Shown piece by piece: positions 120-27,359 of a stretch of DNA of 34,439 bases. The stretch covers positions 1-34,439 of the IMG/VR virus record IMGVR_UViG_3300043570_003087, one strand, 5' to 3'. Source of the DNA: a virus. A program made the translations under genes and the position numbers. The stretch's first letter is position 1, and each line of letters starts with the position of its first letter. Below the pieces are notes generated by a model that was not told the origin of the DNA, did no database searches, and was given only the letters and a program-made list of their open reading frames with translations.

Positions 120-148
120 TTTACAACCAGTTTTCTCCTGTGTATAAT
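120..148 (+). promoter_or_regulatory. Strong sigma70-type promoter, rightward
   Basis: TTTACA (120-125), a 17-bp spacer and a perfect TATAAT (143-148) form a near-consensus promoter. The expected start at about 155-156 coincides with the first base of the 15-bp closing stem of the RNA at 156-289. The -10 box runs into AATAAATAC, which resembles the late-promoter heptamer seen elsewhere in the window. Confidence 0.8.
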
Positions 149-155
149 AAATACT

Positions 156-289
156 GTGCAGGCGAGCCAGACTCCAGCAACAGCAGGAGTTAAACGCAGA
201 GTGAGACAGGCACTCCACTCAAAGTCATATTTGAGTCCTCTGATCCTTTTTCGATGAGCCACCTGTCCTGGCTCGCTTGCACTTTTTTT
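156..289 (+). ncRNA. Compact structured RNA with terminator-like end
   Basis: A 134-nt element closed by a 15-bp stem, GTGCAGGCGAGCCAG (156-170) with CTGGCTCGCTTGCAC (268-282), perfect but for one G-U pair and followed by seven T (283-289). Inside are hairpins ACTCC/GGAGT (171-175/186-190), GAGTG/CACTC (199-203/211-215), ACTCAAA/TTTGAGT (217-223/230-236) and a weaker bulged one (238-245/253-258). The loop of the second hairpin, GACAGG (205-210), is complementary to CCTGTC (262-267), allowing a pseudoknot. It has its own promoter ending at 148. It may be a free phage small RNA, or a leader whose closing stem ends transcription just before the acetyltransferase gene at 292. I do not recognise it as a known RNA family. 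Confidence 0.7.
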
Positions 290-25555: not shown

Positions 25556-25758
25556 GGAGTTCTTCCTTCCCACTTCAATACAAAGTGTGTTTTGTCTGCA
25601 CAGGGTTCAGGCCAGACGTGATCTGCAAACTGAGCCACTGTGCAGGGTCTGCCTGCAAACACCCACACAGGTGGATACAACTGCACATTTGCAGTGGCCG
25701 GTTTACCTTGGGCTGTGACACCAGCAGGATATTGATTGGTTATCTCGGGCCAGTTCAT
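25552..25758 (-). CDS. Unknown 68-aa protein coupled to the methyltransferase
   Basis: A small protein of unknown function (MNWPEITNQYPAGVTAQGKP start; a Trp/Cys-bearing middle with WVFAGRPCTVAQFADHVWPE). It overlaps the methyltransferase stop and the next start by four-base ATGA junctions, so the three genes are probably translated as one coupled unit. No recognisable motif. Confidence 0.5.
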   Translation of the reverse strand: MNWPEITNQYPAGVTAQGKPATANVQLYPPVWVFAGRPCTVAQFADHVWPEPCADKTHFVLKWEGRTP

Positions 25759-27359
25759 TCAAACAACTTGCCAAATGTTGTGCTATCAGAATTCCAGGCA
25801 GCAATGCGTTTGAGTGCTATTTCCACATAAGCAGGATCCAGTTCACAGCCAATGTATTCATGGCCCAGTTCCACAGCAGCACAGCCTGTGCTTCCAGAAC
25901 CGTTGAATGGATCTAATACTACACCGCCCTTGGGTGTGACAAGTTTGATAAGATACTTCATCAACTCAATGGGCTTTACTGTGGGGTGATTGTTGCCTGG
26001 ACTATTAGCAAGTCTTTCTGCCAACATAGTTGGACTTGCACCTGCTACTTTTTCTGCGTGATCCAACACATTACCGTGTTCATCTCTTGCTCTGCGTGTT
26101 TGTGCTCCTGGATCCTCAAACCCAATGTGTCTCTCTCGACGGCTGACCTTGGGGCAGTAGAAATACTTTTGATATGGTTCTGCTATCTCACCGAGGACAT
26201 TAGAAGGGAAGCGTCCTTGATCATTTGCTACAAATTGCGGACTACCATCACCACCTGATTGTGTTTCCCCACCGCCTGTGGCATTATGGAAACTGGCTGT
26301 GCGTTTGCCTGCTGTTGGCTTATTACTTTTACTTTTTCCACTGCCAAAGAAGTTAGTGCCATTTGTAGCATTTTCTTGTCCTCTTGCTATATCATCTTGA
26401 TGTTTGGCATCATACGCATCTTCATACGGCACTCTCGTAGCATCAATGTTGAGAGCACCTGTGCCCCACTGTTGACAGTTGCGGGCTATTGATAGTTTGA
26501 TAGGCTTGCGGGCCAATGCTATGGGTTCATGTGCTGGTTTCAATGCTGTGCCCCAACCTGACCAAGTTTTGCCATCTTCAGTCTGACTCTGAGTGACATC
26601 TACGGTCTTGCTACGAGCACCAATAGTATAGTTGTCAAACTCCTGATCAAAGCAACCAGATTCTTTCTCACCTATTTTGACCTGTGGTGTGGTCACAAAG
26701 TAATCATCATATTCATCACCACAGCCCAACACTGATTTCAGCGTGAGCCACTTGTCGTCTTTGGGCAAGTTGTTGGCCCAGCCTTTGTCTTTGAAGTCTG
26801 TCTTGAGATATCCACCAGCATTGAATCCACACTCACGAGCGATCTCTGCTGTGCTTTTACCAGATTCTTCATACAGTTGTCGCAGTATGGCTTTGACTTC
26901 AGACAGTTCAGTTTTATGTGCGGCTTTACCACTCTGACGATCAATGCTCTTGCCAACATCTTGGCTCTTGGGAAAGCCTGAACTGTAGATCCACATGATC
27001 TGATCACGAATCTCAAAGCCGGCTGTTTGTAGGCTCATTGCCATATGATGATAGGTTCTGGCTGCAGAGAACGCAAGCACATGTCCGCCGGGCTTGAGCA
27101 CACGATAGCATTCAAGCCAAAGATCACGCATCCAATATTGAAACTCAAGATCATCAGCCAGGCTGGTATGTTTCATTCCGCTGGGCAAGTTTTGAACTGC
27201 CACCATCTTGCTGGTTGTTTCCGTGGCCTTCCGACTGTCCCAGTCTTTGCCCAGGAAGCCTATGCCGTAGGGTGGATCTGTCACAATGGCGTCTACGCTG
27301 TTGTCGGGTAAGTTTTTTAGGGTCTCACGATTGTCGCCCTGTAAGATTTGATATTTCAT
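25755..27359 (-). CDS. DNA methyltransferase, beta-class N4/N6 type
   Basis: A 534-aa DNA methyltransferase using S-adenosylmethionine to methylate an adenine N6 or cytosine N4. The catalytic motif IV is DPPYG at residues 28-32, followed by the target-recognition region, then HPTVKP (458-463) and motif I DPFNGSGSTG (483-492), which binds the cofactor. Order IV, recognition, I is the beta class. Residues 151-195 (ELSEVKAILRQLYEESGKST onward) look like an inserted helix-turn-helix. The long middle makes it larger than typical 250-400-aa enzymes. No restriction gene is nearby, so it is likely an orphan that protects phage DNA or marks it. Ribosome-binding site AAAGGA. Recognition site unknown. 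Confidence 0.85.
   Translation of the reverse strand: MKYQILQGDNRETLKNLPDNSVDAIVTDPPYGIGFLGKDWDSRKATETTSKMVAVQNLPSGMKHTSLADDLEFQYWMRDLWLECYRVLKPGGHVLAFSAARTYHHMAMSLQTAGFEIRDQIMWIYSSGFPKSQDVGKSIDRQSGKAAHKTELSEVKAILRQLYEESGKSTAEIARECGFNAGGYLKTDFKDKGWANNLPKDDKWLTLKSVLGCGDEYDDYFVTTPQVKIGEKESGCFDQEFDNYTIGARSKTVDVTQSQTEDGKTWSGWGTALKPAHEPIALARKPIKLSIARNCQQWGTGALNIDATRVPYEDAYDAKHQDDIARGQENATNGTNFFGSGKSKSNKPTAGKRTASFHNATGGGETQSGGDGSPQFVANDQGRFPSNVLGEIAEPYQKYFYCPKVSRRERHIGFEDPGAQTRRARDEHGNVLDHAEKVAGASPTMLAERLANSPGNNHPTVKPIELMKYLIKLVTPKGGVVLDPFNGSGSTGCAAVELGHEYIGCELDPAYVEIALKRIAAWNSDSTTFGKLFE

Follow-up and report, generated by a model that had tools for sequence, protein, structure and literature searches.

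The window, that is, the entire stretch of 34.4 kb analysed here (IMG/VR virus record IMGVR_UViG_3300043570_003087, positions 1–34,439), carries genes for a Dps-like ferritin-fold protein, a GNAT-type acetyltransferase, a portal, a major head protein and a large terminase of the conventional type, and it belongs to a virus of an uncultured podovirus-like lineage of tailed phages. No tRNA genes were found in it, and an AAGGA Shine-Dalgarno sequence stands ahead of 16 of its 33 genes. The only close genome, MW202484, is itself uncultured and contains no match to the RNA described below. At the locus under study, all on the plus strand, a sigma-70-like promoter motif, a compact structured RNA (156–289) and the GNAT ORF (292–780; phrog_1249, E = 3.7e-4) follow one another, the ORF lying downstream of the RNA and forming no part of it. 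Elsewhere in the window, the best PHROG match of a 534-aa DNA methyltransferase ORF (25755–27359, minus strand) extends over residues 1–522 of the protein and only about 225 profile positions, which suggests a large insertion in the middle of this protein.

The RNA is closed by a stem, P1, whose 5′ strand GTGCAGGCGAGCCAG (156–170, plus strand, as are all the elements that follow) pairs with the 3′ strand CTGGCTCGCTTGCAC (268–282) through 15 pairs, one of them G-U, and which encloses exactly 97 nt (171–267). The P2 hairpin (171–190), ACTCC-AGCAACAGCA-GGAGT with an inner GC/GC, is followed by the linker TAAACGCAG (191–199), of which TAAACGCA is single-stranded and the last G opens P3, by the P3 hairpin itself (199–215; GAGTG-AGACAGG-CACTC), and by a P4 hairpin that the fold and the alignment place, in reduced form, at 217–236 (ACTCAAA-GTCATA-TTTGAGT). 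Then comes a pyrimidine-rich single-stranded segment, TCCTCTGATCCTTTTTC (236–252), with a mean unpaired probability of 0.89–0.93 in the structure model, and a weak fourth hairpin lies at about 243–256. The GACAGG of the P3 loop (205–210) matches CCTGTC (262–267), which abuts P1, and a run of seven U (T7 in the DNA, 283–289) would form an intrinsic terminator together with P1. The 15-bp stem with its 97 enclosed nucleotides, the three hairpins and the weaker fourth, the loop complementarity and the U7 run had all been named in the original prediction, and all are present in the sequence. The computed folding energy of −54.9 kcal/mol compares with −35.0 ± 3.8 kcal/mol for 200 dinucleotide shuffles, none of which was as low (z = −5.2).

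Homologues were gathered among IMG/VR podovirus-like contigs by searches with the neighboring Dps and GNAT genes, supplemented by scans for the core pattern, and amount, with the window, to 24 distinct RNA sequences (23 homologues) of 127–194 nt. All data are DNA of uncultured viruses. A whole-record search found exactly one copy in each of the 25 RNA-bearing records, some of which are near-duplicates, and gave no RNA match in a further 50 related records, the majority of which are fragments. The aligned set comprises 22 sequences including the window; L134 and L158/L162, which were found later and did not enter the training of the covariance model, score 142 and 59.5 bits with it, respectively. 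A match in L171 (17.5 bits, E = 0.06), pattern matches lacking support from the model, and an Arthrobacter match from the pattern scan of genome contigs (17 bits with the covariance model) were dismissed as chance.

Comparison of the homologues for compensatory changes, which the original prediction had put forward as one of its checks, strongly favors the fold. In a plain MAFFT alignment that was not fitted to the structure (A3; 42 named pairs, 22 sequences), standard pairs fill 91.9% of the cells, against 70.2% after shuffling and 33–42% with the partners slid by 1–3 columns, and 38 of the 42 pairs change on both sides (196 such cells versus 65 in shuffled alignments; 0 of 500 shuffles as high), where the cell counts, given the kinship of the homologues, do not represent independent events and the slid control preserves this relatedness. 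The proportion of paired cells is 94.8% in P1 (11 of 13 pairs change on both sides), 88.4% in P2 (9 of 9 pairs covary), 100% in P3 (4 of 5), 97% in the loop pairing (5 of 6 change on both sides), 90.1% in P5, an additional hairpin of most homologues, and 69.7% in P4, the alignment of which is uncertain. A second test on the covariance-model alignment yielded both-side changes in 34 of 36 pairs, and in the independent prediction by RNAalifold, which contains P1, P2 and P3, compensation is seen for 24 of 27 pairs. Moreover, a model built from the 21 homologues without the window retrieves 158–280 on the plus strand as its sole match in the window (51.9 bits; E = 2.1e-12, covariance-model E-values being rough), so that, together with the shuffling result, the claim of a fold beyond chance is upheld. 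Given that the 24 versions share one fold while their letters differ, evolution preserves the RNA itself; on this comparative evidence, we conclude that it constitutes a conserved structured family, the structure of which is kept far better than the sequence.

In a plain minimum-energy fold, GACAGG/CCTGTC forms a nested helix that takes the place of P3. Because both P3 and this pairing are conserved in the comparison, the two are expected to form together, as a pseudoknot. All six pairs can form in 18 of the 18 tabulated representatives, across nine loop sequences (for example, GACAGG/CCTGTC, GATTGA/TCAATC and AGTGGG/CCCGCT), and the later members from outside the training set keep the pairing as well (GGTGAG/CTCACC in L134 and GATCGA/TCGATC in L162). 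Judged by this covariation, the pseudoknot is genuine.

The linker at 191–199 occupies invariant columns in 22 of the 22 sequences of alignment A3; the unpaired sequence that is invariant in the family is UAAACGCA, UCCUUUCAAGUUAG is strongly conserved, and the best-conserved segment of the RNA is UAAACGCAG, rather than the UCCUUU motif of the pyrimidine-rich segment, which in the homologues reads TCCTTTCAAGTTAG. The P5 hairpin, with the loop AGGTAAAGTG, stands at the P4 site of most homologues, and most relatives also have P6, whose loop is UUGCCA and which the window carries in reduced form. The window and four relatives (L056, L002, L006 and L038) represent a short form that has neither the P5 loop nor the P2 loop CAATCGCG, and the joint absence of these two loops from the five sequences suggests that, where present, they may touch each other.

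With respect to transcription, the promoter TTTACA-17-TATAAT named in the original prediction (120–148, plus strand; TTTACA at 120–125, TATAAT at 143–148) is indeed there, with 11 of 12 consensus letters, and is the only such site in positions 1–1000 of the window; however, this near-consensus pair occurs in the window alone among the homologues and is not conserved. What is conserved instead is the promoter-like element TAAATA (148–153, plus strand), located 2 nt before P1 in the window and, usually after C or A, a few nucleotides before P1 in all members tabulated as well as in L134 and L162, at a near-constant distance. Of the 14 copies of TAAATA in the window, 8 fall in intergenic DNA, which makes up 5.3% of the sequence (p about 1e-7), and 11 are preceded by C; furthermore, the same motif precedes the GNAT gene in relatives that have no RNA. 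Thus, (C/A)TAAATA is likely to be a −10-like promoter element of this class of phages, probably a phage-specific one, and the proteins examined included no identifiable phage sigma factor or RNA polymerase. CTAAATA recurs mainly in intergenic DNA or ahead of genes (e.g., at 43, 785, 6884, 22607, 25306, 27763 and 32321). The copy at 785, just past the GNAT stop, is followed by about 75 nt that fold well (z = −3.9) and are closed by an intrinsic terminator (841–865); the segment 785–868 (plus strand), which is not clearly conserved in relatives, is a possible second small RNA. Beyond it, the GNAT–Dps interval at 881–1000 (CCAGGGTAGCCACTGGGTGCTGG ... CAGCACTGCGGTGCCGCTGTGC) is similar to its counterpart in L056, L004, L006 and L019 and could be a conserved 3′ element or terminator of the Dps gene.

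Where the contigs reach far enough, the locus reads RNA, zero to two small ORFs, GNAT on the same strand and Dps on the opposite strand, and the RNA lies upstream of the same GNAT gene in every homologous locus that extends to it. The gene next to the RNA differs in both family and strand, being GNAT, hnhA, the unrelated orfX or HNH-B. In class 1 (11 of the 24: L017, L027, L035, L039, L041, L043, L057, L058, L061, L113 and L162), the RNA is followed by a convergent HNH-B gene on the opposite strand, with a terminator hairpin visible in ten aligned members, and GNAT is preceded by a TAAATA of its own in 5 of the 5 genomes checked in which no further ORF intervenes (L017, L043, L057, L058 and L061); in L113, an hnhA ORF also intervenes, and no TAAATA stands just upstream of GNAT. 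In class 2 (13 of the 24: the window, L056, L002, L006, L038, L004, L019, L025, L031, L032, L036, L042 and L134), an ORF on the same strand follows P1, often past a T run, and GNAT, where checked, is without its own TAAATA. A T run closely follows P1 in about half of the aligned homologues, and 10 of the 22 have a separate terminator hairpin. In the five class 1 genomes in which GNAT appears to have its own promoter and the RNA its own terminator, the RNA must be more than a leader, and since the same fold is kept in both classes, control of the next gene would not be its primary job. From these arrangements, as read in the sequence, we conclude that the RNA is free-standing, with its own promoter motif and its own 3′ end, independent of the gene downstream; in this respect, the original prediction of a discrete structured RNA with both is borne out by the covariation, the pseudoknot and the terminators that face an opposite-strand gene. 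The bases just after P1 are kept as ACCC/ACCT or similar in both classes (L025, L032, L039, L041, L035, L027 and others) and possibly constitute a 3′ processing signal.

The second suggestion made at the outset, a switch that stops transcription before the acetyltransferase gene, does not describe the general arrangement. It retains some force in the window, where GNAT has neither a promoter motif nor a Shine-Dalgarno sequence of its own and where, as in the rest of class 2, read-through past P1 may plausibly feed this gene. These features, along with the same-strand ORF close after P1 in all 13 class 2 genomes and the missing TAAATA of the class 2 GNAT genes checked, are what might be expected of a cis-acting leader or attenuator that senses something or limits read-through and thereby controls the acetyltransferase, an HNH gene or a small ORF. 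We consider such a role unlikely: there is no constant same-strand gene to be regulated, the downstream gene being GNAT, hnhA or orfX, and the fold is kept in the 11 genomes where the HNH gene that follows lies on the other strand, in most cases beyond a terminator; neither was a conserved alternative antiterminator pairing noticed in an unsystematic look.

In the tree of GNAT and Dps (FastTree, midpoint rooted), the RNA carriers fall into two groups; L062 is placed among the carriers, and its contig stops before the position of the RNA. L001, with a GNAT 81% identical to that of the window, has no RNA and has an hnhA ORF in its place. The absence of the RNA from L001 and from the 50 searched records implies that it is dispensable in the wider group; taken together with the tree, the distribution points to an ancient RNA that has for the most part been passed down along with the locus but is open to loss. 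The persistence of GNAT in many relatives without the RNA led us to reject an RNA-antitoxin/GNAT-toxin pair. As for hnhA, this uncharacterised ORF of about 90 aa with a weak match to phrog_16521 (L032:7802–8077, L025:6282–6554, L001:3729–3986) adjoins the RNA or occupies its place and may be a reduced homing endonuclease.

An hnhA or HNH-B ORF lies between the RNA and GNAT in 19 of the 25 RNA-bearing records, and also in L162, and HNH-B matches HNH endonuclease families, so that the RNA might be thought to belong to a mobile HNH homing unit or to be its homing target. Several observations make this highly improbable: the locus of the RNA is always the same and its distribution tracks descent, its HNH-like neighbors come from two separate families and in two orientations, the window, L056, L002, L006 and L038 have no adjacent HNH gene, and nothing in the small ORFs points to an RNA-guided nuclease. 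A passive homing target would fit better than a part of the mobile element. Almost as hard to credit is a replication or packaging RNA, comparable to the phi29 pRNA or to a replication primer RNA. In the best-assembled contig, the RNA does lie between divergent genes of primase/helicase type (identified by eye from translations) and GNAT/Dps, but the phage encodes a large terminase of the conventional type, no copy of the RNA is detectable in some relatives, and three contigs show no GC-skew switch at the RNA, an observation that also led us to reject an origin-of-replication RNA. Finally, the multihelix junction, the pseudoknot and the invariant unpaired nucleotides resemble ribozyme cores, and the pseudoknot and invariant linker could in principle form the active site of a self-cleaving or otherwise catalytic RNA. 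This, too, is most improbable: the Rfam ribozymes are unmatched even at permissive thresholds, and because the RNA begins where transcription is predicted to start and ends at a terminator, its release requires no cleavage.

Thus, we propose, with a probability of about 0.62, that the locus is a free-standing structured noncoding RNA gene, the product of which is likely a trans-acting stable RNA with a conserved single-stranded core; transcription itself, action in trans and a binding partner are what we infer from the DNA. Transcription would proceed from the phage-specific (C/A)TAAATA promoter and begin on the first base of P1 or immediately ahead of it. P1 would enclose P2, P3 and P4 (as well as P5 and P6 in most relatives), the P3 loop would pair with the strand beside P1 and stack the RNA into a fixed pseudoknotted body, and either P1 with the U run or a separate terminator a short way downstream would define the 3′ end. 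The closure by P1, the pseudoknot and the invariant unpaired segments suggest a protein or a second RNA as the binding partner, to which such a stable scaffold would present the UAAACGCA linker and the UCCUUU segment. In genomes like that of the window, some read-through might additionally express the downstream gene.

One conceivable further step is that UCCUU, being complementary to the AAGGA Shine-Dalgarno sequences of the phage, captures ribosome-binding sites and tunes translation. UYCUYU occurs in 21 of the 22 sequences and is mostly single-stranded in the models, although any such motif matches Shine-Dalgarno sequences and is therefore not discriminating; L056 has no UCCUUU, and in L004 and L019 it is modelled as partly paired. 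Given these exceptions and the better conservation of UAAACGCAG, Shine-Dalgarno capture leaves most of the conservation unexplained; as a single step it is doubtful, and a protein-binding or tertiary role appears likelier as the main constraint. Quite unlikely, and more ambitious, is the reading of the family as a new phage RNA class that aids takeover of host translation, in which an exposed UCCUUU on a rigid pseudoknotted body would mimic the 3′ tail of 16S rRNA and trap ribosome-binding sites or initiation factors in the infected cell.

The original prediction had placed the RNA in no recognised family, and at the gathering threshold of Rfam 15, no family matched the window or 13 homologous loci; permissive scans, ribozyme families included, gave nothing near a gathering score. 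A match of L041 to STnc420 (30.3 bits against a threshold of 70) falls on the terminator hairpin and was rejected. BLAST against phages, plasmids and E. coli did not match the RNA and revealed no cultured phage carrier, and the literature on phage RNAs, searched with most subscription papers outside its scope, yielded no description of the family. This is accordingly a new, uncatalogued family within the loose kind of phage-encoded structured noncoding RNAs. With a covarying fold, a pseudoknot, an invariant core and 24 variants, the RNA lends itself to probing, structure determination and pull-down experiments; the locus also exposes a phage-specific promoter motif and has repeatedly acquired HNH genes next to the RNA gene.

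To our knowledge, lytic phages have so far yielded few structured noncoding RNAs. The phi29 pRNA, another compact RNA from a phage, also has a junction and pairs through a loop; its Rfam covariance model remains unmatched here, the window phage has a canonical terminase gene, and the pseudoknot of the window RNA, by covariation, is intramolecular and formed with an adjacent strand. GOLLD, ROOL and other ornate RNAs linked to phages or prophages are likewise structured RNA classes from metagenomes and phages, but these span several hundred nucleotides, in contrast to the 127–194 nt of the present family, which matches none of them in Rfam. HEARO and the IscB omega RNA also stand beside an HNH-like ORF; here, however, the adjacent ORFs are of 90–160 aa, HNH-like or of no known kind, with no RuvC-HNH nuclease of the IscB/TnpB type, and the RNA, which has no Rfam match, keeps a fixed locus next to differing ORFs. 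The noncoding RNAs of PhiKZ, one of them about 100 nt long and intergenic, were found by Grad-seq (PMC8545117); compared by description alone, they too are discrete phage RNAs, although discovered experimentally and in a 280-kb phage. RNAC and RNAD of T4 are small RNAs of a lytic phage whose biological role is unknown, transcribed from the T4 tRNA region, which is linked to the homing endonuclease SegB (PMC3014915). They lie in a tRNA cluster, whereas the window has no tRNA and its RNA has its own promoter motif; set beside the present family by description alone, they share with it the character of small phage RNAs.
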